Virus record (IMG/VR): IMGVR_UViG_3300021142_000190 | Location: 1 to 22,887 of that record | DNA: 22,887 nt | Reading direction: 5' to 3' (one strand) | Origin: a virus | Part shown: positions 2,042 to 22,172 of the stretch, in pieces | How the letters are laid out: the number at the start of each line of letters is the position of its first letter | How positions within the stretch are numbered: position 1 is the stretch's first letter | Translations under genes and position numbers: made by a program | The notes under the pieces: model-generated | Seen by the model: only the letters and a program-made list of their open reading frames with translations | Databases searched by the model: none | Told to the model about the DNA's origin: nothing

Positions 2042-4399
2042 CTACTCTTTGTACGCAGGATTTGCTCCAAAATCGTTTTGGTTAGCATACTTAATACCTT
2101 GGTCTACTAACTGTTGTTTTGTTAAAAGAGGGTTACAAGTTCCAAGGGCAAGTCCTGCAGCATCTTGAGTAATATTATCATCTCTATTTTTACCAAGGTG
2201 ATTTGTATACTGATAAACTTTTGCATTAATTAAGTCTTGATTATAGTTCGGGTTTCTTTGACCATAATCAGCAGCCCCGGTAAACTCAGAGGCCGCGTCC
2301 AAAGGAGTACCTGATGCTCTTAGATTACCTAAAATATCCGCGTGTTCCTTCATTAAATAGGGCATATCCCCATTATAAAATTCAGCATGTTCTTTAAATT
2401 CTGGACTTCTTAAATCATTTATTCCTTGAGATATTTCATTAAAATAAGGTATCTTAGATAAGCCTTTTTCTAGCAAAGAATGTTCTGGAGCATTAGGAAT
2501 TTTAGTATAATCTACTATTTCAGGTTTAATAGGGGTAGAATATTTTTTGCCAAATAAATCGTCAACTGAAGCTTTATATTGACGCATCTCTTCTGGAGAT
2601 GGTTTGGGAGCAGTTACGCTAACTGGAGGTAAAGTAGAATCTACCTCACCGCCCTCAGCAAATCCGGGAGGATTATAAAATGGTGACATACCTTGAGCTT
2701 TTCTACTATCGCTCCAAGCTCTTGCCTTTTTGGCTACTTCTGGAGTAATGTTTCCATTTAGGACATTTTTAATATCTTCTGAATTTAACGTTGGTACTAG
2801 AGATGGGTAGTCTCCTGTCTCATCTCCAATAGAATATTCTGTCATTGACTTACCGGCGTTAGGACCAGTGCCATGAAGCTCATCCAATAAGCCAGTAGAC
2901 TTTGGTATCATCTCGCCACCATAAGTGCCGTCTGATTTTAAATAGGCTCTTAATCCACCACCATTGATATTAGGATTTTGATATGGGTTTGGGTAGTCAC
3001 GATAGTTAATACCACCCTCACTTGGATTGGTCCCTACCTCACCGCCCTCAGCGAACTTTTTTTTTACTGCAGGGTTAAAGTTTGATTGGCCATAAGCCAT
3101 ATTGAGTGCATCTTTCATATATTGCTCAGGATTTACATAAGCTTTATCAATTTGACTATTAAGTATAGGGGCTGCTGTAGCTAATCCCCCACCAATGATT
3201 TTGGATGGTAATGATGGAATAGCAGAAGCACCAGCACCAAGAGCACCAACTCCACTAATAAAAGCTTGTAAAGGCCTATTTTGATCATAATAGTTTTTTG
3301 CCTGTGCTCCTTGGTATACCATATCCCCTATTGATGCAGCAGGTAATATTTTATTAGCAAAGGGTATTTTATTAACTACTGAAAGTGTCTTACCCACTGC
3401 TGAACCCACAGGACTTTCACCGATAGCTTGATACATAGCTTTTGCTTTATCTAAATTTGACATACCAGCTCTAGCCACCTGAGCTTCTCTTTCAGAAGAT
3501 AAGGCATTTGCAGCACCTTGATTTATTCTATAAGTTCTAGCAGCCTCATTACGAGCTGCGGCTGCATCTGCTATTTGCTGTTGTGTAGCTGCAGCCTTCC
3601 GTTGAGCTTCTGCAATAGCCGCTTCTCTTGCAGATTGTTCTGCTTTAGCTGTTTCTTCTGCTGCTTGGGCTGCTTTAGATTGAGCAAGTATTCTAGCTTG
3701 GGCTAACTCCTCTGGAGTTGCATTCGGAGTAAGAATTCGGCTGTTACCTTGAATACTATGGCTTGTTATAGGTAACTCTTCAACTCCCATAGTACCAGCT
3801 TTTCTTGCTGCAGCATTTCCCGCAGAAATATCTTCATTTACGATAACATTTTTAACAGCGGGCTCTGATAACCCATGTTCAGAATAATAAGTATCCCTCG
3901 GTACTACGGGCTCGGGAGTGGCGATAGGTTTTGCAACACTATCTAATGGGGAAGGGAACCCTCTTTTATATGCAGGATCTGTTTGAAAATTCTTTGGCAC
4001 ATTAAATAATTCAGAAGCTTGAACGGTATTAGGAGTTTCAGCAATTGTAGGTTTTAATTTAGATGCTAATGAATCTGAAAAAGATTCAATAGGGTTTAAT
4101 TTTTTTGGTAAAAATTGAGCTGCTAAAGCTGCACCACCTGCTTCTTCACCTAATTTTTTTGCATTAAGTTGTTGTTCCGGAGAAGTAAGATGTTCTAAAG
4201 AACCTCCAGCGTAATCTTCAATATCTCCGGGAGCCCTTTGAGTTTTGTATTCATTTACAAAATCACCATAAGATCCGGCGCCCTCAGTAACTGCTTTATC
4301 TACATCAATACCGTGTGCTGAGCCTAATTGACGAGCTTGAGCTATTATAGAGGGATCTTCAGCCGTTATAGAAGGGTTTTCAGTAGTTCCATCAGCCAT
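2042..4399 (-). CDS. putative internal virion (ejection) protein, 785 aa
   Basis: No family is recognised with certainty. The role is inferred from position, as last gene of the virion module after three similarly built low-complexity proteins, and from composition. It has a Pro/Ala-rich N-terminal part, an Ala/Gln/Glu-rich predicted coiled coil (about 229-315), a Gly/Ala-rich hydrophobic stretch (about 377-415) that might contact membrane, then a cassette (456-580) bounded by two AEGGEV motifs (450-455, 581-586). The cassette contains TEYSIG...YPSLVPTLN (520-539), a pattern I associate with phage structural proteins of unknown function. The C-terminal part (590-785) is charged and mostly helical-looking. 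Its ATG overlaps the upstream stop as TAATG at 4399, implying coupled translation. It ends head-to-head against the polymerase gene with no spacer. Podoviruses such as T7 and P22 carry large helical ejection proteins here. A tail-fibre role is unlikely. Confidence 0.6.
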   Translation of the reverse strand: MADGTTENPSITAEDPSIIAQARQLGSAHGIDVDKAVTEGAGSYGDFVNEYKTQRAPGDIEDYAGGSLEHLTSPEQQLNAKKLGEEAGGAALAAQFLPKKLNPIESFSDSLASKLKPTIAETPNTVQASELFNVPKNFQTDPAYKRGFPSPLDSVAKPIATPEPVVPRDTYYSEHGLSEPAVKNVIVNEDISAGNAAARKAGTMGVEELPITSHSIQGNSRILTPNATPEELAQARILAQSKAAQAAEETAKAEQSAREAAIAEAQRKAAATQQQIADAAAARNEAARTYRINQGAANALSSEREAQVARAGMSNLDKAKAMYQAIGESPVGSAVGKTLSVVNKIPFANKILPAASIGDMVYQGAQAKNYYDQNRPLQAFISGVGALGAGASAIPSLPSKIIGGGLATAAPILNSQIDKAYVNPEQYMKDALNMAYGQSNFNPAVKKKFAEGGEVGTNPSEGGINYRDYPNPYQNPNINGGGLRAYLKSDGTYGGEMIPKSTGLLDELHGTGPNAGKSMTEYSIGDETGDYPSLVPTLNSEDIKNVLNGNITPEVAKKARAWSDSRKAQGMSPFYNPPGFAEGGEVDSTLPPVSVTAPKPSPEEMRQYKASVDDLFGKKYSTPIKPEIVDYTKIPNAPEHSLLEKGLSKIPYFNEISQGINDLRSPEFKEHAEFYNGDMPYLMKEHADILGNLRASGTPLDAASEFTGAADYGQRNPNYNQDLINAKVYQYTNHLGKNRDDNITQDAAGLALGTCNPLLTKQQLVDQGIKYANQNDFGANPAYKE
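2641..2659. repeat. 19-bp direct repeat, copy 1 (codes AEGGEV)
   Basis: CTACCTCACCGCCCTCAGC on the plus strand is identical to 3034-3052. The copies are 393 bp apart start to start, a multiple of three, and sit in the same reading frame of the 785-residue protein. Confidence 0.95.
3034..3052. repeat. 19-bp direct repeat, copy 2 (codes AEGGEV)
   Basis: Exact copy of 2641-2659. It encodes residues 450-455 (AEGGEV), while the other copy encodes 581-586. Recombination between them would remove 131 codons without a frameshift. Confidence 0.95.
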
Positions 4400-6534
4400 T
4401 AAATTTGCCCCTTTTTATATGCGTCGAATGATGAAATTGGTTTAAAATGTGAAGGAAATTGTTTTGCTAAATTGTTATTAGTTTTAATTTCTAGTTGCTT
4501 ATAAGCTGGGGATGATTCTAAGACTTCAAAAGGAGCATCAAGACCGTATTTGGTATGATATTGATCCAGCATTTCATTTTTTGCTTGCACTAATTGAGCT
4601 GCAGCTTTCATTAAAGTCGCGGCTAATACGTTTGATGAAGCCGAAGAATTTGTCCCTACACCCTTAGCTTGTTGAGCTAATCGCAAGAATGATTGTTCCA
4701 TACGAGTTCCTGCAAAAGCTTGTTTAGCAAAATCAATCTGTAATCGTGCAGACGCATCATCCGCCATTTTACGATTAGCAATTTCTTCAGGTGCGTATTT
4801 AACTTGCTGAACAATATTTTCTGGATTGCCCCCAACGATTGGCAACTTATCACCAAATATGGAACGTGTTATTGATGTGATATCACCTTGCTGCGTTGGA
4901 GCAAATAAATGGGGTGAATTTATAGCAAGGTTACTAACTAGATCAGCATCACGCATTGTGGCTAATGTTGAGTCTTTTTGTGCTCTTAATGTAGACTCTC
5001 GTTTAGCTGAATCAGTTCCTAAAGCTGTAGCTGTAGAAGTAGCTTTTGCTTGACCAACTTTTTGTGTGGCACCTAAAGCAGCGGCATCTAAATCAGCATT
5101 CTTTTGATCAATGGTTTTAGAAGCTTCAGTTGATTCACCCCAAGCGTGTGGAATATGTTGAACGGCTACGGGAGCTTGTCCAGTGGGTTGTACAATAGCT
5201 TGTACAGGAGTAATAGGGGCTTGAGTTTTGCTCATTGTAGCAGCAGTAGGAGCAGCAGCAGTCGGAGCAGCAGTAGGAGCAACAGCAGTCGGAGCAGCAG
5301 TAGGAGCATTACCTAAGTCAACACCATTCATTACTTGTGATAAATATTTAGTAGGATCAGCTTTTTTGAAACCACCATATTGCATCATAGCTTTTGTATA
5401 GTCGCCGCCATTTTGTTTAACTAATTGTTGAATATAGTAATCAGCGGCAGCACGAGATTCATCTGCATCAAATGGATTAAACTTAACACCCTGTTTATGA
5501 AGCATGGCAGCAGTTTCTGGTGTAAATTGATACCGTCCTAATGCTTTAGAGACTGGATTAATAGCATATGGATCCTGTGAACTCTCAGCACCAGATAAGT
5601 TATCTAATAATTTAGCAGGGGTTCCATAAGATTTGTGTACGTCAAAACTCGGGGGAGTTTCAGCACCAGCGGTAGGAGCACCAGCGGTAGGAGTACCAGC
5701 GGTAGGAGCACCAGCGGTAGGAGTACCAGCGGTAGGAGCACCAGCGGTAGGAGCACCAGCGGTAGGAGCAGGCTGGTTGTTTGGATATGCTTTTTGAAAA
5801 TCCACAATACTACCAAAGAAGTATTTGCCCGGTTGACCTGGAATAGCCCACTGTCTTTGTTCCATCATAGCCGGGTTATGCTCATAATTGTATTGAGCTA
5901 GTGTTAAGTCACCCTTTGTTTTTCCAGCTTGTAATGAACGAGCTGCTAATGCTTTAGTATATTCTGCTTGAGCGGCTTCCGGATTTGTTTGAGCCAAACT
6001 CATAATGTTAGCCATTACTGCCGGGTCTATTGGAAGTTGTGTACCTTGTGTACCTTGTGTACCTTGTGTACCTTGTGTACCTTGTACACCTTGTGTACCT
6101 TGATCACTTTGAGGAGTTTGAGCTCCTTGAACACCTTGATTATATTTAGCAAGCACATCACCAAAGTTTTGACGACTAGCTGCTTGTTGTGCTTGCTGTG
6201 CTCTAAAGTTTGCAATTTGCATTTGCATATCTTGCACATCTTTAGCCTCTGCCCGTTTGTCTGTAGTGCGTTGACTCATTGCAGCATTGGCCTGAGTATA
6301 CGGAGCCCAAGCAGCCATAGCGTCCTGTAGACTGCTTTGAAACTTAGCTACGGGACTATTCCGTTCATCTAAGTAATCTTGCATCTTTTTAAGTACTGCT
6401 TCTGAATTCGTTGGGTCTAATACTGTCTTAGCTCCTTTAGGTCCAGCAATAGTTGTGTATCCACCCAACCCAGAAGCTGGGGTAGGTGTTTCGTCTGGAG
6501 TTTCGTCTGGTAGTATTGAATCTAGTCCGGCCAT
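4399..6534 (-). CDS. internal virion protein with lytic transglycosylase-like (SLT) domain
   Basis: 711 residues. A domain at about 305-405 reads as an SLT/lysozyme-like fold: LSGAESSQDPYAINPVSKAL with candidate catalytic E317, then GRYQF (333-337) in place of the usual GxxQ(I/F/M) block, and MMQYGG (384-388) in the position of the family's YNaG block. It is flanked by flexible linkers: GTQ repeats (147-166), seven PTAGA/T units (257-291) and APTAA repeats (410-432). The N- and C-terminal thirds are helical and Gln/Ala-rich. In T7 (gp16) and other podoviruses an ejected protein carries such a domain to open peptidoglycan for DNA entry, which is the inferred role. The stop overlaps the next start as TAATG. 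The start is preceded by AGGAAA about 7 bases upstream. Confidence 0.8.
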   Translation of the reverse strand: MAGLDSILPDETPDETPTPASGLGGYTTIAGPKGAKTVLDPTNSEAVLKKMQDYLDERNSPVAKFQSSLQDAMAAWAPYTQANAAMSQRTTDKRAEAKDVQDMQMQIANFRAQQAQQAASRQNFGDVLAKYNQGVQGAQTPQSDQGTQGVQGTQGTQGTQGTQGTQLPIDPAVMANIMSLAQTNPEAAQAEYTKALAARSLQAGKTKGDLTLAQYNYEHNPAMMEQRQWAIPGQPGKYFFGSIVDFQKAYPNNQPAPTAGAPTAGAPTAGTPTAGAPTAGTPTAGAPTAGAETPPSFDVHKSYGTPAKLLDNLSGAESSQDPYAINPVSKALGRYQFTPETAAMLHKQGVKFNPFDADESRAAADYYIQQLVKQNGGDYTKAMMQYGGFKKADPTKYLSQVMNGVDLGNAPTAAPTAVAPTAAPTAAAPTAATMSKTQAPITPVQAIVQPTGQAPVAVQHIPHAWGESTEASKTIDQKNADLDAAALGATQKVGQAKATSTATALGTDSAKRESTLRAQKDSTLATMRDADLVSNLAINSPHLFAPTQQGDITSITRSIFGDKLPIVGGNPENIVQQVKYAPEEIANRKMADDASARLQIDFAKQAFAGTRMEQSFLRLAQQAKGVGTNSSASSNVLAATLMKAAAQLVQAKNEMLDQYHTKYGLDAPFEVLESSPAYKQLEIKTNNNLAKQFPSHFKPISSFDAYKKGQI
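5239..5308. repeat. imperfect Ala-Pro-Thr coding repeat
   Basis: Alternating GTAGGAGCAGCA and GTCGGAGCAACA/AGCA-type units encode the APTAA linker just after the transglycosylase domain (residues about 410-432). It is protein-coding low complexity, less regular than the 15-bp array at 5663-5767. Confidence 0.7.
5663..5767. repeat. seven-copy 15-bp tandem repeat (PTAGA/T linker)
   Basis: Seven contiguous copies of G(C/T)ACCAGCGGTAGGA, differing only at the second base. They encode the PTAGA/PTAGT linker ahead of the transglycosylase domain. The near-perfect DNA identity suggests recent copy-number change by slippage or unequal recombination. Confidence 0.95.
6037..6099. repeat. seven-copy 9-bp tandem repeat (GTQ linker)
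   Basis: Seven units of TTGTGTACC, of which the sixth is TTGTACACC. On the minus strand they encode Gly-Thr-Gln (Gly-Val-Gln in the variant) in the N-terminal part of the transglycosylase-bearing protein. Confidence 0.95.
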
Positions 6535-6560: not shown

Positions 6561-7631
6561 TTAAGAAAGCCAATTAGGACTTCCTGTCGTATCTATCATT
6601 GACCCATTATAGTTCGGAAGGGTGCTAGAAGTACTTCCCGTGTCTATAGGAGAAGACCCTCCGGTAAATGCGTCCACAGTATTAGGATTAATACCGGTAC
6701 CGTTTATAGCGCCTGAAATATTAGGGCCCACTGGAAGCCCTCCAATTAGCCCTGTATCCGCTGGAGTAGTAGTTCCAGCGGCGGTGTTTATTGGATTTTG
6801 ATTATTAATCATCCCTGTGGTGTCCACACCGGTAGTTCCAGAAGTTCCATTAATCCAATTACTAATTGTGTTTCCTAAACTTGATCCTGTATTAACTCCC
6901 AAAGAGCTTAATAAGCTATTAGCTCCAGTCCCCAAAGCAGTGAGACCAGCCACGTTTTGTAACATAGATGGGGTTTGAGTATTTGTAACAGTTGTCGGAG
7001 CCTTGATAGTACCAAGGATGTTGGCTAAGTCGGCCGTTGCCGTTAGCGGGGCTGCTTGTTGTGCCTGACCTAGGGTAGTCATTGCTGATGTTCCTTGAGT
7101 ACCCACGTTACCAAGACCTGTTGCGGCATTAACACCGGTTTGTTGGTTAGTTAAAGCGGCTTGCATTTGTTGTGACGTTAGTGCATTTTGAGCATTTGTA
7201 ACGGCAGTATCAGCAGCAGAAACGTCTCTTAAACTACCAAACTGTCCATTTGCAATTGCGCCAGCATCTGCAGGGGCAACATAGCTAGGTAGAAGACCTT
7301 TTAATTGTTGGTCTTGTGCCGCAAATAGTCCGCCCATTGCTGTATCAGTATTTGGTGAGACTACCCCTGTAGTTGCGTCAGTAGTCCAAGGGTTAGTAGC
7401 CCCGGCACCAATAGTACCCAGAGTCCCTTGAGCTTGAGTAAATGGATTAGTTGCAGGATTACTTAAATTGTTTATTGCGGTTCCAGCGACTGTATTTTGT
7501 AAACTGGGCATTGATGCTGCACCCGTGGTGGCTTGGTTTACAACATTCTGTTGAGCTTGGTCATACCACGATGGCATCGTGGTTGACTGAGACGCAGTTC
7601 CTTGGGTTAATGAGTCTAGGGCTGAAGCCAT
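6561..7631 (-). CDS. putative internal virion protein, Ala/Thr/Gly/Asn-rich, 356 aa
   Basis: No recognised domain. The sequence is low in charge and very rich in Ala, Thr, Gly, Asn and Gln. An Ala/Gln-rich stretch (about residues 140-200) could be helical and the C-terminal 150 residues are Gly/Thr/Asn-rich and probably disordered or beta-structured. It ends with IDTTGSPNWLS. The phrase IDTTGSP also occurs near the N-terminus of the next upstream gene product (PIDTTGSPWG), suggesting related segments. The start codon overlaps the stop of that gene as TAATG at 7631. Position between the GNAT-like/TGEF-motif genes and the transglycosylase protein suggests a core or ejection protein, by analogy with podovirus gene order. 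It is not obviously a tail fibre, as the NGGTG modules of the fibre genes are absent. Confidence 0.55.
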   Translation of the reverse strand: MASALDSLTQGTASQSTTMPSWYDQAQQNVVNQATTGAASMPSLQNTVAGTAINNLSNPATNPFTQAQGTLGTIGAGATNPWTTDATTGVVSPNTDTAMGGLFAAQDQQLKGLLPSYVAPADAGAIANGQFGSLRDVSAADTAVTNAQNALTSQQMQAALTNQQTGVNAATGLGNVGTQGTSAMTTLGQAQQAAPLTATADLANILGTIKAPTTVTNTQTPSMLQNVAGLTALGTGANSLLSSLGVNTGSSLGNTISNWINGTSGTTGVDTTGMINNQNPINTAAGTTTPADTGLIGGLPVGPNISGAINGTGINPNTVDAFTGGSSPIDTGSTSSTLPNYNGSMIDTTGSPNWLS

Positions 7632-8779
7632 TATTTTCCTACCTTTTTAACTGCAATTGATAAATATCCTAATGGGCCTTTACTGTCCGGAGGCAAATCT
7701 TTTGGATCGTGATCCTGTTTATGCTCTCTGATAACTTTTAAAAAGCTATCAAGCACTTTAGATCCGCTGTCGTTATTTCCATTACCTAATGAAGAAACGA
7801 TATCCGCAGGCAAAACAAATTCACCTGTGGCCAACATGGCCGGAACACTGTCGCTTGTTCCATCACCTTCACCAGTAACATATGTGTTACTATGCTTGGC
7901 ACCCCCCTCAGAATAAAACTCTGGTATGTGACCCCCTTCTGCAAAATGCGGGGCTATATCGGCCATAGAATGGAAGTCTGGGGATACTCCATGTAGTGAG
8001 GCTGAAGATGATCCCTTATTAATTTTTGGGGAAAATCCAGAAAATTCAAACGGGGATACTTCACCCCCAGTAGCATAATGTTGAGCGGCTACATCGGCAT
8101 TATATAGTTGTGGAGCACTAAAAGTTCCACCTAAATTAACTTGACCTGTAGACCCTTGAGTTAGTCCCGGAGTGAAATTAGTAAAGCCAGAGTTATTGGA
8201 TGTCCCTGCAGGACCATTTAGATTGGTCGCTCCGGTGCCTGTAGTTCCTGTAGTTCCTGTAGTACCTGTAGTTCCTGTAGTACCTGTAGTTCCTGTAGTT
8301 CCTGTAGTACCTGTAGTACTTCCAATACCCAATGCCCCTAAGCCAGCCCCAATGGCGGCTTTTGTACCTGTACCAATAACCGTATTGGCAATGGTATTTC
8401 CAAGGGTTCCTAGTCCAGTTCCTGTAGAATTAGGCATTCCACCTGTCTCTCCGGGTAGGATGTTAGATATACCCGGAATATTAGGAATTCCAGAAGAACC
8501 CGGAATACTAGGAAGGGTTCCAGTAGAAGATGTTAAGTCAACTGGAGAAGGTAAATTTGGATCTGGAGTTACTCCAGTAGGTGTTTGGGCGTTGCCCCAA
8601 GGACTTCCTGTTGTATCAATAGGAGCATTTGGGGATGATGGTATCGATGGGGTTGATGGTGTTCCAGGATCACTGTCACCAAGATAATGACTGGCAGTTA
8701 AATAATCACCGCCGGGGATATAATGGGTAACATTTAGATAGTCACCGCCGGGAACGAAGCTGGTTACGTAATCAGACAT
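7631..8779 (-). CDS. putative internal virion protein with GTSDSVPAMLATGEFVLPA motif, 382 aa
   Basis: The N-terminus carries two repeats of the type (F/Y)(V/I)PGGDYL (MSDYVTSFVPGGDYL, THYIPGGDYL). A Pro/Ser/Gly-rich middle includes nine Thr-Thr-Gly-type units. The C-terminal third has YATGGEV, FAEGGHI and YSEGG, followed by GEGDGTSDSVPAMLATGEFVLPADIV and a helical tail. The GxGTSDSvPamLs.GEfVlpA block is a pattern I know from the C-terminal regions of tape-measure-like and podoviral internal proteins; its function is unknown to me. In a short-tailed phage this protein is more likely ejected or in the internal core than a tape measure. It starts two bases after the GNAT-like gene stops, and its TAATG stop overlaps the 356-residue gene. 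Confidence 0.6.
   Translation of the reverse strand: MSDYVTSFVPGGDYLNVTHYIPGGDYLTASHYLGDSDPGTPSTPSIPSSPNAPIDTTGSPWGNAQTPTGVTPDPNLPSPVDLTSSTGTLPSIPGSSGIPNIPGISNILPGETGGMPNSTGTGLGTLGNTIANTVIGTGTKAAIGAGLGALGIGSTTGTTGTTGTTGTTGTTGTTGTTGTTGTGATNLNGPAGTSNNSGFTNFTPGLTQGSTGQVNLGGTFSAPQLYNADVAAQHYATGGEVSPFEFSGFSPKINKGSSSASLHGVSPDFHSMADIAPHFAEGGHIPEFYSEGGAKHSNTYVTGEGDGTSDSVPAMLATGEFVLPADIVSSLGNGNNDSGSKVLDSFLKVIREHKQDHDPKDLPPDSKGPLGYLSIAVKKVGK
8238..8318. repeat. nine-copy 9-bp tandem repeat (Thr-Thr-Gly)
   Basis: Nine contiguous CCTGTAGT(T/A) units encode a Gly-Thr-Thr run in the 382-residue protein. Third-position T/A variation is the only difference between units. Confidence 0.95.
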
Positions 8780-8781
8780 TT

Positions 8782-9234
8782 TTATTCCAGTTTAAATGAG
8801 TACACAGTTTCAAAATGTCCAGCTCCTAATCTCTCTAATATTTTACCAAAGTCATTATTAGGTTTTACACCAACTAATATTCTTTGGGGGTTATGTTTTT
8901 TAATTTCATTAAGGGAATGCTTTAGGAATTTATATCCAAATAGCCCTTTTCTATATTCTTGTAATACAAAAATCAAATCAGATGTTGCGGTAAGACTTGT
9001 TTTAAAATGAGGATGGTAAAACAATATCCAAAAACTAAATCCTATTAATTTACCATCATCTCGAATAGTATATATTTTAAATCTATTTCGACTTTCTAAA
9101 TGCTTATAAAATTCTGTATTAAATCCCGCTGGAATATCATCTTTATTTTGAGCTATTTCATCATAAAATATATCAAATAACGGTTTTGAATCAGGTAAAA
9201 ATGTGTCTAATGTTTCTTGCTGATAGGTTATCAT
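8782..9234 (-). CDS. GNAT-fold acetyltransferase-like virion-cluster protein
   Basis: 150 residues, close to one GNAT domain. The pattern fits: beta-strands around KIYTIRDDGKLIGFSFW (53-69), then DLIFVLQEYRKGLFGYKFLKHSLNE (86-110), where QEYRKGLFG resembles the acetyl-CoA pyrophosphate loop (R-x-x-G-x-G/A), then a strand (RILVGV) and KPNNDFGKILERLGAGHFETVYSF, the usual xxN...lyeklGF...-like end. Related GNAT-like proteins occur among podovirus structural genes (T7 gp13-type), so it may be structural, not catalytic. No substrate can be named. There is no Shine-Dalgarno before ATG; instead the repeated two-block element (9241-9272) ends six bases upstream, which would fit a very short or absent leader if that element is a promoter. 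The next gene starts two bases past its stop. Confidence 0.7.
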   Translation of the reverse strand: MITYQQETLDTFLPDSKPLFDIFYDEIAQNKDDIPAGFNTEFYKHLESRNRFKIYTIRDDGKLIGFSFWILFYHPHFKTSLTATSDLIFVLQEYRKGLFGYKFLKHSLNEIKKHNPQRILVGVKPNNDFGKILERLGAGHFETVYSFKLE

Positions 9235-9240
9235 CTAAGT

Positions 9241-9272
9241 ATACTAATACATAAATCGTATATTATACGCCC
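9241..9272 (-). promoter_or_regulatory. two-block repeated element, copy A (candidate promoter)
   Basis: Read on the minus strand: GGGCGTAT, ten unconserved bases, TTATGTATTAGTAT. The same two blocks with exactly the same spacing recur at 15642-15673. Copy A occupies nearly all of the 40-bp gap upstream of the GNAT-like gene. It does not match sigma-70 -35/-10 boxes well. A phage-specific promoter is the simplest reading; an RNA-processing or operator site is possible. Confidence 0.55.
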
Positions 9273-9274
9273 TT

Positions 9275-9541
9275 TTACCGCACAACACCATTGACTATTA
9301 AACTAAATTCATTAGCCCATTCTTGCCAATTTGGAAACAAACTAGGGTCCGGAACTGGATATCCAGAAAAAGCAGGAGTTTGAGTTAAGCTATTAGCTGT
9401 CTCTTTCCAATTCTCTGCTGTAGTGTATGCGATTGGTTCAGCCCCATAAGACATTATCAAATTACCATTAAAGTCTTCCCAACTAGAATAGTGAGGCACA
9501 TAAGGAAAGAATTTTGGTATACTAGCCATGTATGTATACAT
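9275..9541 (-). CDS. small conserved-looking protein of unknown function, 88 aa
   Basis: Not recognised. It has a Trp/Tyr/Pro-rich composition (YSSWEDFNGNLIMSYGAEPI, FPNWQEWANEF), no signal peptide and no membrane segment. It lies between the nozzle gene (30 bases upstream) and the GNAT-like gene, a position where podoviruses often keep a small protein. The start is uncertain: ATG at 9541 and ATG at 9529 (MASIPKFF) are both open, and neither has a Shine-Dalgarno. A 12-bp perfect palindrome TATGTATACATA (9531-9542) covers the first start and lies just upstream of the second. Confidence 0.65.
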   Translation of the reverse strand: MYTYMASIPKFFPYVPHYSSWEDFNGNLIMSYGAEPIAYTTAENWKETANSLTQTPAFSGYPVPDPSLFPNWQEWANEFSLIVNGVVR

Positions 9542-15641: not shown

Positions 15642-15673
15642 ATACTAATACATAATTACTATGAAATACGCCC
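15642..15673 (-). promoter_or_regulatory. two-block repeated element, copy B (candidate promoter)
   Basis: Minus strand: GGGCGTAT, ten bases, TTATGTATTAGTAT, identical in both blocks and in spacing to 9241-9272, while the ten middle bases match at about four positions. The GGGCGTAT block overlaps the last codons of the endolysin gene. The element ends 49 bases before the ATG of the Lys-rich protein, leaving a normal leader with a Shine-Dalgarno. Confidence 0.55.
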
Positions 15674-16126
15674 ACCAGCAGCAATATAGGCAGCTTTTAG
15701 ATCCGCCATTTTATTTGTATGCTGCCCATATTGAGCACCCGGTAATGATGCCCATATGTTAGAAATACGAGCTATAGCAGTCTCAAAGTTACCCTTATTA
15801 ATATCATCTAGGGCGCCTCTCTCATGGCACTGCATCAAGGCTATTCTGTCTTGGCAATCAGGTGAGAAGTCAGGAAGGTTTAATGACATCTTATAGGAGT
15901 CAAAGTATCTAGCTAGGAGTTGGTATCTGCCTGCGGCAGTAGATGACAGCTTGTCATTCAGGCGTATAAGCTGTCTTGGGTGATCAGCATAACTATAAAA
16001 AAGATGAGGGTTATTTGGCGTCGATCCAACGATTACATTGTACCCGTTGTCTGACTTGGCAAGAAGCGCAGGTCCTATCTCAGAGTGCGCTATGGTGTCT
16101 AGCAGTGCCTTTTCATTTTTGGTCAT
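15659..16126 (-). CDS. endolysin, lambda R-type transglycosylase
   Basis: 155 residues. It degrades peptidoglycan at lysis. It aligns by eye with lambda R along its whole length: LLDTIAHSE with candidate catalytic E16, NGYNVIVGS (27-35), YADHPRQLIRLN (46-57), STAAGRYQLLARYFD (62-76), FSPDCQDRIALMQ and ERGAL (87-105), and ISNIWASLPGAQYGQ (121-135). There is no N-terminal signal or membrane anchor, so it is a cytoplasmic endolysin that needs a large-hole holin. The start lies inside the i-spanin gene, a 14-base overlap. The order spanin-then-endolysin is the reverse of lambda's S-R-Rz-Rz1. The last codons overlap the copy B element. Confidence 0.93.
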   Translation of the reverse strand: MTKNEKALLDTIAHSEIGPALLAKSDNGYNVIVGSTPNNPHLFYSYADHPRQLIRLNDKLSSTAAGRYQLLARYFDSYKMSLNLPDFSPDCQDRIALMQCHERGALDDINKGNFETAIARISNIWASLPGAQYGQHTNKMADLKAAYIAAGGRIS

Positions 16127-16592
16127 ATATCGAGGCTTGTTCTAAAGCCCAGTCCTGTGCGTTGAGTAATTGTTTAGTTGTCTCAGTACAATCACTTTCT
16201 AATTTGTTGAACGAGGCACGAGATACTGTGTCGGGGGTTTGACTGTCAGACTGTTTGGTAGGGGCGGGAATGTCGGACACTGAACTGCTATTGCTTTGGT
16301 TGCTTGGAATGAGGCGCAGCCAGTCAATTCCAGGAGTAGGGCTAGTCCCATTAAATATTTGACTGAATTTAGTATTGGCATTTTGAGTTTCCTGATTTGC
16401 ATTAGAGGTTACTTTTGCGGTGATTAATGCTGCTTTTTCTACGGCGATGGCGTCTACTACTTTTTGTTTATCCCAATTACTCTGAATAGCTTCTTTCCCT
16501 GATACATACCCTGTGTGGTGTGCATATAAAATAGATAGAGCCAGAGTGGCTAAGATAGCGGCTTGTTTCCAATACAGTGCTAAGAATGGCAT
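16113..16592 (-). CDS. i-spanin (Rz-like)
   Basis: 159 residues. Inner-membrane spanin subunit that joins the outer-membrane partner to fuse the two membranes after wall degradation. The N-terminal YWKQAAILATLALSILYAHHTGYVSG is a single membrane anchor (about 8-25). Then comes a predicted periplasmic helical region (KEAIQSNWDKQKVVDAIAVEKAALITAKVTSNANQ), a Pro/Ser-rich stretch, and a second helix ending in LLNAQDWALEQASIYDQK, which has the C-terminal style of Rz proteins. The o-spanin is encoded entirely inside it in another frame, the lambda arrangement. The start overlaps the stop of the propeller gene as TAATG. Confidence 0.85.
   Translation of the reverse strand: MPFLALYWKQAAILATLALSILYAHHTGYVSGKEAIQSNWDKQKVVDAIAVEKAALITAKVTSNANQETQNANTKFSQIFNGTSPTPGIDWLRLIPSNQSNSSSVSDIPAPTKQSDSQTPDTVSRASFNKLESDCTETTKQLLNAQDWALEQASIYDQK
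16199..16381 (-). CDS. o-spanin (Rz1-like lipoprotein), nested in the i-spanin gene
   Basis: 60 residues from ATG at 16381. This start has AGGAAA eight to nine bases upstream; an in-frame ATG at 16402 is less well placed. A signal sequence (NSVKYLMGLALLLELTGC) ends in a lipobox L-T-G-C, with the lipidated Cys at residue 22. The short mature part is Pro-rich (CPTFPPLPNSLTVKPP), as in Rz1 proteins. It lies wholly within 16113-16592 in a different frame. A lipobox plus a Pro-rich tail inside an Rz gene is strong evidence that this is a real gene. Confidence 0.88.
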   Translation of the reverse strand: MPILNSVKYLMGLALLLELTGCASFQATKAIAVQCPTFPPLPNSLTVKPPTQYLVPRSTN

Positions 16593-17452
16593 TATGTCAT
16601 TACCTTTAAGTCATTAATACAATTGTTATTAGGCACTGGATATCTTTTATACCCACCTGTTTTTAAATCAAATATTAAAACATAACTAGACTGTTTGGCT
16701 TTGACATTTTTAAAGTTAATAGATGCTCCAATTACTAACTTATTATCATGTATATCTAAACCACGTAAAAACGTTGTATTGGCGTCAACTATTTTGTATC
16801 GGGTAATACCTAGGGTACCTAGGTCTATTTTTAAGAGCTCTCCGGTCGCTGTAGAGAGTGTATATAGTTGATTATGTAAAATTATAATGCCGTGACAGCA
16901 AGTTCCACCACTAGCAATGATTTTTACTTCTAGTGTGTCCTTATCAATATACCCAAAGTCTGATGTAATTATCGTCTTATTATGTCGACAAAAATAGATC
17001 TTATCTGGCGTATTGAACAATGAATTTACATGTCTAGAATCCATTGTGTCTGCATGAACAGGTTCAGGGGGTGCTTCAACCCTATTTAAAAAGTTGATAT
17101 TAACTTGTTGATGCTTTCCAGCTAAATATACCCCAATACAATCTACTGCTGTGTTACAGGTATACCAAGTGTCTAAATCTTTAATAATCTGGTGGGTGTT
17201 TATATAGAGCGGGATATCTATCATATGGCTGAAATAGCATGTAGACCGGCTAAATGCCGCTAGTTTATCATTTGATACCACGTAGATATACTTATCATCA
17301 AACTCAATACCAAAGGGGCGGTATGGACTTCGCCCCTTCCCGTCCAAACTCTTTGCTAATAATTGTGGTGCTCGTGCTTGTTTGTGAATAACCGCTCCCG
17401 TGATAATGTTAAGCACAACGAAATCATTATCATCTGTTGTTATTAATATCAT
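16592..17452 (-). CDS. beta-propeller protein of unknown function
   Basis: 286 residues. Repeating blade-like segments of about 40-50 residues: MILITTDDNDFVVLNIITGAVIH, PFGIEFDDKYIYVVSNDKLAAFS, HQIIKDLDTWYTCNTAVDCIGVY, HGIIILHNQLYTLSTATGELLKIDL, FLRGLDIHDNKLVIGASINF and YVLIFDLKTGGYKRYPV. These have the strand-turn-strand look of NHL/quinoprotein-like propellers. The HVN...IYF and HGI...LY...G.L pattern recalls the TIGR03032/DUF4915 type, which is a tentative comparison. No signal peptide, so probably cytosolic. The ATG overlaps the oxygenase stop as ATGA, so the two are probably translated together and may act together. It lies inside the lysis cassette but shows no lysis feature. Confidence 0.6.
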   Translation of the reverse strand: MILITTDDNDFVVLNIITGAVIHKQARAPQLLAKSLDGKGRSPYRPFGIEFDDKYIYVVSNDKLAAFSRSTCYFSHMIDIPLYINTHQIIKDLDTWYTCNTAVDCIGVYLAGKHQQVNINFLNRVEAPPEPVHADTMDSRHVNSLFNTPDKIYFCRHNKTIITSDFGYIDKDTLEVKIIASGGTCCHGIIILHNQLYTLSTATGELLKIDLGTLGITRYKIVDANTTFLRGLDIHDNKLVIGASINFKNVKAKQSSYVLIFDLKTGGYKRYPVPNNNCINDLKVMT

Positions 17453-17991
17453 TCAACCTCCAAGATAAAGTTAATAACTACTCTTCTTTTATGGTTAATT
17501 GGTACTGTAGATCTATGGTACGTCTTTGAATCAAACCAGTAGCAATTTCCTCTGACTGGTGGTGAACGATCAACAATTGTTGTCTTATCATCTGCTAAGA
17601 TAATCGTGTCCCCATCGGAATCCATTACGTAGTACACAAAAGTAATATAGTTACCGGGGTCATTAGGGCTAATATCTGGGTGTATTAAGTTTTCTAATGC
17701 ATTTGGATCGTGGGATATGTTAGGGATTAGATTACCCTTAATGCGCACGATGCGTTTTATCTTAATTCCTGTCTTTTCAGCAAATACCCCTATCATAGCA
17801 TTTACTAGATAGAAGTGTTTGGAAAACACTTTTTTAAATATATAGAAGACATGCGTCATCTGAAAAATATCTTCGTCCGGAGTATCAGGAACTATTTGTT
17901 CTGCATTCCAGTACCAAGGAAATCCAGTGCTTGTCATTACTTTGTGAACTTCTTCTTCAAGTTCTTTAGGGAGTACATTTTGTATAATCAT
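17449..17991 (-). CDS. 2-oxoglutarate/Fe(II)-dependent oxygenase, phage type
   Basis: 180 residues, a single double-stranded beta-helix domain of prolyl-4-hydroxylase-like type. The iron ligands are visible: H104-P-D106 (LIHPDIS), the distal H159 (KTYHRSTVP), and an arginine pair R169/R170 (HKRRVVINF) that would bind the 2-oxoglutarate carboxylate. Core strands NYITFVYYVMDSDGDTIIL and PPVRGNCYWFDSKTYH follow the family pattern (GG.. replaced by DGD.). Phage enzymes of this class are frequent in aquatic viromes. Their substrates (protein, nucleobase or small molecule) are mostly unknown, and none can be inferred here. The ATG begins four bases after the putative holin stop, and the stop overlaps the propeller start. 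Confidence 0.85.
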   Translation of the reverse strand: MIIQNVLPKELEEEVHKVMTSTGFPWYWNAEQIVPDTPDEDIFQMTHVFYIFKKVFSKHFYLVNAMIGVFAEKTGIKIKRIVRIKGNLIPNISHDPNALENLIHPDISPNDPGNYITFVYYVMDSDGDTIILADDKTTIVDRSPPVRGNCYWFDSKTYHRSTVPINHKRRVVINFILEVE

Positions 17992-17995
17992 TCGA

Positions 17996-18211
17996 CTATT
18001 GTACAGGAGTTTCCTTATACTTCATAGAAATATATTTAGAGGCTACTGCAGCACTCCCCACAATACCTAAATATGCCATCCAGATATCAGCCGTTGGGTT
18101 TGGGATCATAATAAATTTAATGGTGCCAGCCAAGTAGGCTATATTACACCATAGTTTAGAATGACTGACTTTACCATCTGCGGTGGAAATAACATCTGAA
18201 AAAATAGACAT
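17996..18211 (-). CDS. putative holin, 71 aa, two membrane segments
   Basis: A short protein with two hydrophobic segments: LWCNIAYLAGTIKFIMI (about 20-36) and IWMAYLGIVGSAAVASKYI (about 43-61), separated by a short polar turn with Pro-Asn-Pro, and a charged C-terminus (KYKETPVQ). The N-terminus SxxDGKVSHSKLW has the form of several phage holin-like proteins. Size, topology and position upstream of the spanins and endolysin support a holin. Its ATG overlaps the upstream XhlA-like stop as TAATG, so the two small membrane proteins are co-translated. Confidence 0.7.
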   Translation of the reverse strand: MSIFSDVISTADGKVSHSKLWCNIAYLAGTIKFIMIPNPTADIWMAYLGIVGSAAVASKYISMKYKETPVQ

Positions 18212-18423
18212 TATTTTTTACCAGAAATTAAAAAGTAGATAAAGGTTCCTGCACCTACAATTGCCATAAACCATCGAGCCGCGGCTCCGATCCATGCTAA
18301 TGCTTTCAATGCACCCTTGGCATCTTTCCAAGCAGCTAGTAATTCAGAAGTGTCTTGCTTGATAGCTGAAAGGTCTTCTTTTAAACTATCAACCTCTTCT
18401 TTAAGTTGCTCTAATGAGGCCAT
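18211..18423 (-). CDS. XhlA-like coiled-coil membrane protein (holin or holin partner), 70 aa
   Basis: The N-terminal 35 residues form a heptad-like coiled coil (LEQLKEEVDSLKEDLSAIKQDTSELLAAW). One membrane segment follows (about 49-66, AARWFMAIVGAGTFIYFLI) and the C-terminus is short and basic (SGKK). This is the arrangement of the hemolysin XhlA family, which acts with a holin in Bacillus phages; the match is by architecture only. It is linked by TAATG overlaps to the gene on each side. Confidence 0.65.
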   Translation of the reverse strand: MASLEQLKEEVDSLKEDLSAIKQDTSELLAAWKDAKGALKALAWIGAAARWFMAIVGAGTFIYFLISGKK

Positions 18424-19235: not shown

Positions 19236-19396
19236 GCTAATTGTTCTTTGGTTGGTTGTGGTAATTTATTTGTCCATATTTTAATATAATCCCCATTACC
19301 ATCAGAATCATTTTGCAATATTATTGTACCAGTATCAGTTAAAAAATCATTAATAGTTAATGTTGGGTAAATAGCAATTATTTTTTCATATAGCAT
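19232..19396 (-). CDS. XkdW-like small tail-region protein, 54 aa
   Basis: [20 protein letters not shown], then DTGTIILQNDSDGNGDYIKIWTNKLPQPTKEQLA. The pattern (YP near the N-terminus, DdsDGnGpYIkxW, LPQPTxEQL at the end) resembles XkdW-type proteins encoded after fibre genes. The start at 19396 is chosen over an in-frame ATG at 19480 because it overlaps the fibre stop as TAATG and the family pattern begins there; the longer version would share 84 bases with the fibre gene. Role unknown, possibly fibre assembly. Confidence 0.75.
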   Translation of the reverse strand: MLYEKIIAIYPTLTINDFLTDTGTIILQNDSDGNGDYIKIWTNKLPQPTKEQLA

Positions 19397-20115
19397 TATG
19401 CTGTCCTTATCATTGAACCTTGAAAATATGTGTTTACTAAAGTATTTGAAATTGATACTGATGAAGCCCCTACTGAACAATATATTTCTACATAATCAGT
19501 TGAGCCATTAAGGTAAACTAAAGCTGAACCAAATCCACCATTTATAGTAGTGTTATAACTATTTAAAAACCCTTTAAATGCAGTACCATTTTTATAAAGT
19601 AAAACTTGTAACCAAGTAGCTGTGTTAATTGTTACGCCACCATTAATTTGATAATATCCAGCAATAGTTGGTGTAAACCTACTAGAAGCAAACATACCGC
19701 CAGTAGTATCAAAATCATTAGAAGTAAATGTAATCTTAGTAGCTGTTAAAGATGAAGGTATCGTTTGTTGAACACTTTGATAATAACTAAAAGTTGGTTT
19801 AGATTGACTAACCCAAGCAGACCCATTACTTGTTAATACGTTTCCTGATGCACCTACTGCTGTTATGCCTGTACCACCATTAGCAATTGGTAAAGTACCT
19901 GTAACACCTGTAGTAAGCGGCAATCCTGTTAAGTTAGTTGCAACTCCTGATGTTGGTGTACCTAATAAAGGTGTCACTAATGTAGGGCTTGTTGCCAATA
20001 CTACGTTACCACTACCTGTTGACGTTGTTACTCCTGTACCACCACCTGCAACTTGCAAGACCCCGGAGGCGTTGAATTGCGAACTTCCGATCGCTATATT
20101 ACTTGCTTGTGTCAT
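19396..20115 (-). CDS. tail fibre with C1q/TNF-like C-terminal tip, 239 aa
   Basis: The N-terminal half is made of fibre modules: [40 protein letters not shown] and [11 protein letters not shown], also found in the other two fibre genes. After [14 protein letters not shown], the last ~130 residues ([30 protein letters not shown]..., [57 protein letters not shown]) have the strand order of a C1q-like jelly roll, a common receptor-binding tip. The start at 20115 overlaps the upstream TGA (ATGA) and has GGAG six bases before it; an in-frame ATG at 20127 has no such support. Confidence 0.8.
19868..19900. repeat. 33-bp direct repeat between fibre genes, copy 1
   Basis: All 33 bases are identical to 21208-21240. 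On the minus strand it encodes [11 protein letters not shown]. It is a natural crossover point between the two fibre genes. Confidence 0.95.
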
Positions 20116-20492
20116 ACTGTACTCCATGTATCAGTTGGCTGTATTGGCCAAGTTAAATTACCAGCCGTTGGGTTTACTGCTATACCACGAATTGTATTCC
20201 TGTAAGCTAAGAACTCTGCTTGGTTAGTAAGGTATGGCGAGTTGATAGGGTCAGCTACGTCAGCAATCGTTGTCCAGTCAGTAGCAGAAAGTAATCCTGA
20301 AGCTGTGGCTTTGTTGTCTGAGGCTGTTGGAATATATGGCTGTGGTGGAATAAAAACTCCGTCAACATAAGTCCATTCTGTTGTAACATCATCAGCACAA
20401 TCAACCCAATATAAAGGTTGTGCTACTTCAAATTCTTGTACTGCCACCTCTGCAATACGGTTGTTTTCTTCAGGTGAGATTAGTGCTTTCAT
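20112..20492 (-). CDS. tail fibre assembly chaperone-like protein, 126 aa
   Basis: The C-terminal half follows the phage tail-assembly-chaperone (APC-type) pattern: [42 protein letters not shown], i.e. L-x-x-T-D-W-T..DV...F..YR..(L/I)R, then [11 protein letters not shown]. The N-terminal half ([29 protein letters not shown]) probably interacts with fibres. It lies between two fibre genes, as expected for a fibre-specific chaperone; whether it serves one or both cannot be told. The stop overlaps the next start as ATGA. Confidence 0.75.
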
Positions 20493-20501
20493 TATTTATC
20501 C

Positions 20502-22172
20502 TTAATATTCTACGACTACAACACCAGCAAATCCAGCACCGCCAGCGTTCCCACCGCCCGCTCCTGCTCCTCCTGTCCCTACCGTAACAGCAACTGTCCC
20601 CGCAGGTGTTAATCCTGTAACTATTGATATAGCACACCCTCCAGACCCACCACCACCCCCACCTGAAGCAGTAGATGAAGCGGCAGCACCGCCACCACCA
20701 CCACCACCCCCGTATTGTGTACCCGCACTTCCACCAAGATTGCCTGTTGCTCCTTTGCCAGCTCCTCCAAAGACAGAACCACCCCCTGCACCCCCATTTG
20801 AAGATGACGATGATGCTCCTGGAGTTCCTGATACCCCTGTATTTCCTGATAGATTTAAAGTTCCAGAGGCTCCTAATCCACCTAATCCCCCGTTACCCGG
20901 AGTACCAGAGCCAGAAGCATTTCCTAATCCTCCAGCTCCACCCGTGGCTGATGCATACGCTGAAAATGAAGATGTAACCCCAGCACTTCCGGAGTTTGCT
21001 CCGTTATAACCCGCACCTCCGCCACCACCACCACCAACAACAGTTACTTTAACTTTAGTAATACCTGCTGGAACTGTAAAAGTACCTGATGCTGTAAAGA
21101 CTTGCATATTAGAAAAACCACCACCACCACTAGCGTTAATGGTTTGATTAGGGAATGAGCCTGAAACTGTAATACCTGTACCAGCAACAATGGCTGGACT
21201 TGCCGTTCCTGTACCACCATTAGCAATTGGTAAAGTACCTACTACTGCAAGAACTTGGGCTGTTGATGCCGCTGTGAATGCTGATGTTCCATTACCAAAG
21301 GCAATACCTGATAGAGTAGCTACACCTGTACCACCGTTGGTTGCTGTTAATGCACCTGAGATGTTAGTGTTAGCAGTGCCAATTGCCAAGGCCCCGAAGG
21401 CCGGAGCCGCAGCGCCTGCTGAGATTAGTGCATTACCTGATGTACCTGCCGCTGTAACTGCATAGGCTGTACCAGTACCGTAAGCTGCCCCTCCTGCTGT
21501 TGCCGTGGCTGTTGAGTTCGTACCACCGTTGGCAATCGCCAAGGTACCTGCTAGAGTGATTGCTCCAGAAGATGCTGTTGCTGGGGTTAATCCTGTAGTG
21601 CCTCCATTGAATGTACTGACTGTTGCCGCGATAGCAATAACACTATACACAACACATTCAATAAGATCTCCAGTAATTGCGCCTGTTGCTAAAGTGACTG
21701 AAGTACCATTGGTAGCGGTATAGTCAGCATTAGCTAACTTAATACCATTGCGGTATACATCAATTGCACCAGCTACGTAGGAGATTGTAAATACTGTCTG
21801 ACCTGATGTGGCAGTGAAGTCTGTTCTTGTTATGGTTGAAGCCCCACCCCCACCAATCGCACCCCAAACAGTACCATTGTAGCCCTCAAATGATCCAGTT
21901 GTTGTATTGAAGCGCAACATACCCTGAACACCCGTTGGCTCTTGAGCCGTGGTGCCTACAGGAACCGTGATTGCGCCTGTGCCAATGAAGATACCCGATG
22001 TGGCACTCTTGGTTGCAATGACCTGAACGACGCCAGAGTTGTCCTTATAGAACAACTTACCGTCTGTAATGTTAATCGCTAGTTCACCGTTGACCAAGTT
22101 CCCTGCTGTAGGGGCATTGGTTGTTGTTGCACTGTAATACAGCGATAGTGGGGTAAACCCTGATGCTGCCAT
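20502..22172 (-). CDS. tail fibre with glycine-rich tip domain, 556 aa
   Basis: The N-terminal segment LYYSATTTNAPTAGNLVNGELAINITDGKLFYKDNSG (11-47) is a common fibre-attachment pattern. It is followed by MLRFNTTTGSFEGYNGTVWG (85-104) and a VYRNGIKLANADYTATNGTSVTLATG...GD module (139-170). The shaft (185-350) consists of GGTTGLTPATA, GTLAIANGGT and [11 protein letters not shown] repeats. The tip (about 357-556) begins MQVFTASGTFTVPAGITKVKVTVVGGGGGGG, the signature of the Gly_rich_2-type domain, and continues with long Gly/Ala/Ser loops to GFAGVVVVEY. Glycine-rich tips of this kind bind host receptors in T-even adhesins; their loops can vary quickly. The start follows TAAGGAAATATT, a good ribosome site. 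Confidence 0.85.
   Translation of the reverse strand: MAASGFTPLSLYYSATTTNAPTAGNLVNGELAINITDGKLFYKDNSGVVQVIATKSATSGIFIGTGAITVPVGTTAQEPTGVQGMLRFNTTTGSFEGYNGTVWGAIGGGGASTITRTDFTATSGQTVFTISYVAGAIDVYRNGIKLANADYTATNGTSVTLATGAITGDLIECVVYSVIAIAATVSTFNGGTTGLTPATASSGAITLAGTLAIANGGTNSTATATAGGAAYGTGTAYAVTAAGTSGNALISAGAAAPAFGALAIGTANTNISGALTATNGGTGVATLSGIAFGNGTSAFTAASTAQVLAVVGTLPIANGGTGTASPAIVAGTGITVSGSFPNQTINASGGGGFSNMQVFTASGTFTVPAGITKVKVTVVGGGGGGGAGYNGANSGSAGVTSSFSAYASATGGAGGLGNASGSGTPGNGGLGGLGASGTLNLSGNTGVSGTPGASSSSSNGGAGGGSVFGGAGKGATGNLGGSAGTQYGGGGGGGGAAASSTASGGGGGGSGGCAISIVTGLTPAGTVAVTVGTGGAGAGGGNAGGAGFAGVVVVEY
21208..21240. repeat. 33-bp direct repeat between fibre genes, copy 2
   Basis: Identical to 19868-19900. 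A diverged third version encoding GTLAIANGGT lies near 21521-21550 and a fourth near 22721-22750. Confidence 0.95.

Follow-up and report, generated by a model that had tools for sequence, protein, structure and literature searches.

A conserved oxygenase and β-propeller gene pair beside phage tail-fibre genes as a candidate protein-hydroxylation module

A 2-oxoglutarate (2OG)-dependent Fe(II) oxygenase and a predicted β-propeller protein, here termed OXY and PROP, form a conserved, little-noticed two-gene module in a group of uncultivated aquatic phages. Computation supports the folds and motifs of the two proteins, their conserved pairing and fusion, purifying selection, a conserved propeller face and a location on the tail-fibre side. 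We propose, with a probability of roughly 40%, that the pair constitutes a two-part protein-hydroxylation module, in which OXY would perform the chemistry and PROP would present the substrate, with a tail-fibre protein as the likeliest target.

The pair was analysed in a linear phage record (the window; 22,887 bases), in which the virion and lysis genes form a block on the minus strand; all features listed in this paragraph lie on that strand. Fibre genes are followed there by small membrane genes, then by OXY and PROP, and finally by spanin and endolysin. A glycine-rich tail-fibre protein (20502-22172), which is a candidate substrate, and a tail-fibre-like protein (19396-20127; PHROG 11393, E 3.7e-4) are encoded upstream of OXY (17449-17991, 180 aa) and PROP (16592-17452, 286 aa). 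Two holin candidates had been proposed next to the pair: the coiled-coil/membrane protein at 18211-18423, with just one segment above the hydropathy threshold and a weak XhlA match (E 0.0045), retains this status, whereas the small protein immediately upstream of OXY (17996-18211; PHROG 1322 'membrane protein') has no such segment. On the other side follow an Rz-like inner spanin candidate (16113-16592, E 3.6e-5), which probably lies outside the OXY-PROP module, and an endolysin (15659-16126, E 2.5e-47). As the first-pass annotation had reported, the open frames of OXY and PROP share the ATGA at 17449-17452, where the OXY stop codon meets the PROP start codon. A GGAGG Shine-Dalgarno-like site for PROP is embedded in the final OXY codons (LEVE; 17457-17461). 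Site and overlap are both kept in L001, L004, L006 and L010; L036 and L066 have short gaps in place of the overlap. The overlap alone proves little, because the block is gene-dense, with 13 of the 21 neighbouring gene pairs examined overlapping or lying within 5 nt of each other. Given that tight packing is general in this block, we rejected the ATGA overlap as stand-alone evidence of a partnership.

The assignment of OXY to the 2OG-Fe(II) oxygenases, made in the first-pass annotation, is confirmed. The iron triad H104, D106 (HxD) and distal H159 is invariant in a family alignment of 17 sequences, as is the 2OG-binding R170; OXY thus displays two features of the superfamily, an HxD...H triad and a 2OG-binding Arg following the distal His, and shares the HxD...H...R motif with PF13640 phage oxygenases and PHROG 274, which it matches at E 4e-28. 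An apparent loss of D106 in some rows was rejected on inspection by eye, as L036, L038, L066 and L082 show HID or HQD a few columns off, indicating an alignment shift. The window copy matches Pfam 2OG-FeII_Oxy_3 (PF13640) at E 3.8e-4 and 21.8 bits, under the curated cut-off of 27; the copies of L090, L076 and L036 exceed the cut-off, and those of L087 and L091 fall below it. For L066 we took 3913 as the start of the oxygenase, since the mechanically assigned start lies too far upstream. OXY is 24-27% identical to cyanophage proteins over most of its length (34-44% in two partial matches), and its profile gave no match when searched against PDB sequences. On these motifs we infer that OXY is an Fe(II)/2OG oxygenase and a candidate protein hydroxylase.

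PROP had been read as a β-propeller, and structure prediction bears this out. The AlphaFold2 model, built on 14 aligned sequences, has a mean pLDDT of 92.7 and a pTM of 0.90, and its strand list resolves into six four-stranded blades, with a C-terminal strand predicted to close the ring against the N-terminus. The nearest solved structures are generic six-bladed propellers such as 1npe (Z 26.2, rmsd 2.2 over 238 residues); generic propellers dominate the match lists, which excludes nothing, and the nearest predicted viral structure is an uncultured phage protein of 52% identity. By sequence, 13 of 16 PROP proteins match PF16261 (DUF4915), a family without assigned function, at E<0.01 (best 1.6e-8), and the match of L004 covers most of the profile (35-257 of 316). 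Among the scores listed, all are below the 35-bit Pfam cut-off (24.4 bits for the window, 34.6 for L004, the best), and for TIGR03032 the score is 18.9 bits, with a cut-off of 251.5. Judged by these curated cut-offs, PROP falls outside both families and appears to be a remote relative of them. Neither the 50,697 isolate phage records nor the plasmids searched contained a match to PROP, two scans of genome contigs with PROP alignments gave no confirmed match, and a PDB search with its profile returned nothing beyond short matches that look unrelated (6trs and 7ewf, E about 1e-3).

Pairing of the two genes was assessed from both sides. PROP-based scans together with the window yielded 21 distinct contigs, two of which (L002 and L003) end before OXY, leaving 19 informative. 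OXY is adjacent to or fused with PROP in 13 of these; in L038 one gene intervenes; in L041, L042 and L043 PROP stands beside a 2OG oxygenase of another family; and in L039 and L040 no oxygenase adjoins it. Two other genes flank the L041-L043 PROP: Pfam, applied to L041, identifies the first as a 2OG-FeII_Oxy_3 oxygenase and gives no match for the second, at 4501-5037. Scanning with the window OXY identified 26 loci: PROP lies next to OXY in all nine at 67% identity or more, and in none of the 17 relatives at 42% identity or less, as read from their flanking DNA. A third scan, for the OXY C-terminal motif and blind to PROP, returned 24 contigs, 23 with OXY; here PROP is adjacent or fused at 16 of the 23 OXY genes and missing at 7, the L077 contig ending on the relevant side. 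All six contigs newly found in this way (L076, L087, L090, L091, L095 and L097) keep the 4-nt overlap. That PROP usually follows distinguishes this OXY subfamily from other PF13640/PHROG 274 oxygenases. The partnership is strong, not obligatory, as there are contigs in which OXY lacks PROP and others in which PROP lacks this OXY.

In one contig the two proteins are joined. L037 encodes a single frame of 483 aa (4625-6076), in which a Met-free linker of about 18 residues connects OXY to the PROP that follows. Its model shows the two domains, and pLDDT falls below 50 in part of the linker; owing to the pTM of 0.62, no interface between OXY and PROP can be read from it. The OXY motif scan found no second fusion in its 24 contigs, and because the fusion is seen in one metagenomic contig, it could still stem from a junction error in assembly or sequencing. 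Co-occurrence and fusion together led us to reject chance adjacency of the two genes.

Phylogeny points in the same direction. In the OXY tree, the paired oxygenases fall into two well-supported groups, {window, L004, L006, L010, L037} and {L036, L038, L066}, a topology compatible with a single origin of pairing without requiring it. The order of PROP within the groups is the same as that of OXY, with L037 unplaced at low support. Across the seven lineages compared, to which L076, L087, L090, L091, L095 and L097 do not belong, OXY and PROP distance matrices correlate at 0.895, a value that no label order among the 5040 reached except the identity. Both genes are under purifying selection, with dN/dS of 0.05-0.23 for OXY in four pairs and 0.13-0.17 for PROP in three of four, the fourth being saturated. 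This selection, the divergence of PROP pairs to about 40% identity and their presence on several phage backbones led us to reject recent cargo. Rarity of the pair among relatives, or recent arrival as cargo with no conserved neighbourhood, was what the first-pass annotation had named as speaking against its reading; the co-occurrence check was run, and the counts of 13/19 and 16/23 leave that reading standing. Its suggestion of joint action is well supported by co-occurrence, the one natural fusion, congruent trees and the conserved overlap.

The genomic surroundings bear on function. Contigs of podovirus-like and T4-like type have tail-fibre genes just upstream of the pair and, in most cases, endolysin genes downstream of it. 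L076, L090, L095 and L097 have the order fibre or fibre-like gene, OXY, PROP, coiled-coil protein and endolysin; the upstream genes of L097, L090 and L095 were called fibre-like from sequence pattern. PHROG matching covered the upstream genes of L076, L091, L097 and L087 and the downstream genes of L090, and the upstream gene of L097 gave no PHROG match. In L010, fibre-like genes, a glycosyltransferase-like gene (read from its sequence) and a gene with weak HNH matches precede OXY and PROP, and small membrane-like genes and then chitinase-like and lysozyme genes follow them. In L036 and L066 a glycine-rich gene lies 17-21 nt upstream and a cell-wall hydrolase downstream (Pfam-confirmed only in L036); in L038 a glycine-rich gene lies 15 nt upstream, and the locus is situated between two fibre-like genes. 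A gp32-like gene was recognised by eye in L036, so that the L036/L038/L066 group looks T4-like. The window group has a tail protein in common with phages of about 60 kb such as Caulobacter phage RW; in the annotated stretches read of two relatives, RW and Manatee Spring MW202545, where many genes are 'hypothetical', no oxygenase or propeller is named, and PROP finds no match in the collection to which they belong.

The first-pass annotation had located the pair inside a lysis cassette. This description holds for window-like lineages only; elsewhere the pair sits between tail-fibre and lysis genes, and the fibre side is therefore at least as constant a neighbour as lysis. An accessory role in lysis, with holin, spanin or endolysin as partner, would suit the window-like position between small membrane genes and spanin/endolysin. 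Yet the neighbouring lysis genes differ in L010 and the T4-like lineages while the pair stays, and neither protein has a lysis feature, as had already been remarked; we therefore rejected a lysis function, to which we assign a very low probability. The lysis position of the pair is mostly incidental.

Whether a particular kind of fibre accompanies the pair was less consistent. A glycine-rich fibre gene was at first found at 6 of 7 pair loci and at 1 of 14 loci with OXY only, counts in which related loci were not collapsed. At the same threshold, among later loci, such a gene adjoins the pair in L087 and lies about 7 kb upstream in L097; it is absent near the pair in L076 and L091, the only glycine-rich genes of L090 are other virion genes, and the L095 contig ends. 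L010, too, has none near the pair at this threshold. Since the glycine-rich link weakened with the new loci, we limit the claim to fibre genes upstream. Repeats of at least eight Gly-X-Y triplets occur in 4 of 15 sequences from pair contigs (window, L067, L091 and L097) versus 0 of 18 without the OXY-PROP pair, and the four carriers are related podovirus-like phages. In L067, L091 and L097 the gene with the repeat is a long one of the fibre region and precedes the pair; this does not apply to the window, whose contig ends early.

Several further features of these virion regions were observed. Window proteins at 7631-8779 and 4399-6534 contain a long (Gly-Thr-Thr)n run and (Gly-Thr-Gln)n or Pro-Thr-Ala-Gly repeats, collagen-like in look. 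Within the tail-protein block, 8782-9234 encodes a GNAT acetyltransferase (PHROG 1249) that is kept in relatives (53% identity in L010) and is possibly another virion-modifying enzyme. In L082, OXY lies beside tail-fibre-assembly-like, glycine-rich and cupin-like genes, and similar small genes adjoin the fused gene of L037.

The conservation pattern of PROP suggests how it might act. Computed on 14 rows, after L001 and L043 had been dropped from 16 as near-copies, mean conservation is 0.77 on the A-start/B-end face (48 positions) versus 0.60 on the opposite face (39 positions; 0 of 20000 shuffles). R45, H87, H141, H157, H187 and R230 form an invariant Arg/His ring. By strand topology, the invariant positions R45, P46, S60, T86, H87, H141, H157, H187, L199, S200 and F228 map to inner-strand starts or second-strand ends, and R230 maps to the interior of the blade-six inner strand; D138 and N143 are also invariant. 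On the basis of this topology, as opposed to coordinates, the conserved face would be the channel mouth, contributed by Arg and His from successive blades.

PROP could itself be the substrate, with OXY hydroxylating a conserved propeller residue and PROP being a virion or fibre-tip protein. Pairing and fusion fit such an arrangement equally well, fibre genes adjoin, and P46, D138, N143 and four His are invariant. We nevertheless consider it unlikely, as the conserved residues seem to make up a channel-mouth face typical of ligand binding, not one exposed target, and OXY homologues without PROP at the equivalent position between fibre and lysis genes (L082, with L081 and L089) need another substrate.

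In the hydroxylation module that we favour, OXY would contribute the hydroxylation chemistry, and PROP, whose ribosome site for translation is embedded in the OXY gene, would be its dedicated partner and form a physical complex with it. The channel-mouth face, with Arg and His of successive blades, would bind either the polypeptide that serves as substrate or its modified residue. OXY and PROP would be made late, in the cytoplasm and beside the tail-fibre genes, and it is for these reasons that a tail-fibre or adhesin protein, carrying hydroxylated residues before virion assembly, would be the likeliest substrate. The first-pass annotation had also entertained modification of the host surface; with no N-terminal hydrophobic segment in OXY or PROP by a simple hydropathy count, a direct action there is less likely than one on a cytoplasm-made protein. 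The apparently cytoplasmic location would also suit a late-infection hydroxylation of some host protein in the cytoplasm, such as one of the ribosome or of a defence system, and hydroxylation of ribosomal proteins by prokaryotic 2OG oxygenases is documented in the accessible text of PMC4396695. We regard this as improbable: the neighbourhood contains no defence pointer, and the position beside the fibres would be left unexplained.

A protein substrate for OXY is supported by structural comparison. The oxygenase domain of the fused L037 model matches, at TMt values of up to 0.96, structures predicted for 2OG oxygenases of viruses, the nearest of which carries a prolyl 4-hydroxylase label (a label only), and phage 2OG oxygenases are likened to human EGLN3 in the available part of PMC12774648. 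Both points weigh against a small-molecule or host-metabolism module, in which OXY would oxidise a metabolite and PROP would be a second enzyme or a metal/ligand-binding protein of the same pathway, as does the recurrence of the fibre neighbourhood in unlike phages. The likeness of the invariant His/Arg ring to an active site and the abundance of 2OG oxygenases in cyanophages (PMC3037559, in the text available) speak for such a module, which we hold to be a minor prospect.

Two known systems provide a comparison for the proposed hydroxylation module. The peptide-substrate-binding domain of collagen prolyl 4-hydroxylase is helical, of the TPR type, and N-terminal to the catalytic domain, unlike PROP, a predicted β-propeller encoded downstream of OXY; mimivirus L230, a collagen lysyl hydroxylase, also has a glycosyltransferase part. 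With the former, OXY-PROP would share the combination of a catalytic 2OG domain and a separate substrate-chain-binding domain, as described in the accessible text of PMC12433258 and PMC9676403, and by analogy the mechanism may be common to both. L230 is, like the role proposed for OXY, a virus-encoded 2OG protein hydroxylase (PMC5802723 and PMC9546862, in the parts available); it belongs to an amoeba-infecting virus, by which, and not by sequence comparison, it is set apart here. It is a tentative and rather doubtful extension of our proposal that the pair would represent the first recognised system by which a phage hydroxylates its own virion, with a propeller receptor and collagen-like Gly-X-Y or glycine-rich fibres whose modification would alter how stable the adhesin is or how it binds its receptor.

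Few unexplained accessory genes of aquatic phages are as common as those for 2OG oxygenases. These oxygenases have been read as auxiliary metabolic genes drawing on 2-oxoglutarate (PMC3037559) and, in cyanophages, as metabolic or repair genes (PMC3037559, PMC10436341), as far as the available text of these papers goes; in pelagiphages they are co-located with ferrochelatases, the accessible part of that report mentioning no propeller (PMC9599517). Among titles and abstract beginnings in the open-licence literature on phage hydroxylases with tail fibres or β-propellers, no description of the OXY-PROP pair was found, nor did any paper found in that literature name TIGR03032, DUF4915 or PF16261. 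Through its dedicated, once fused partner and its recurring neighbourhood, the OXY subfamily offers a testable hypothesis of protein modification in place of a vague 'auxiliary metabolic gene', and the uncharacterised DUF4915-like propellers gain functional context from the pairing.

Three observations concern oxygenases more widely. The label 'DNA endonuclease V' sits, in PHROGs (PHROG 274) and in several cyanophage records, on proteins with the 2OG oxygenase motif, and to judge by that motif looks like a propagated annotation error. Two large phage contigs, L012 (5991-10788) and L017 (6131-10914), each contain an array of seven genes in a row, with products of about 160-215 aa that mostly match the OXY family at 22-38% identity. 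In the phage contig L080, two large genes with FAD-binding-like starts (6660-9436) lie near several oxygenases and possibly encode tryptophan halogenases.
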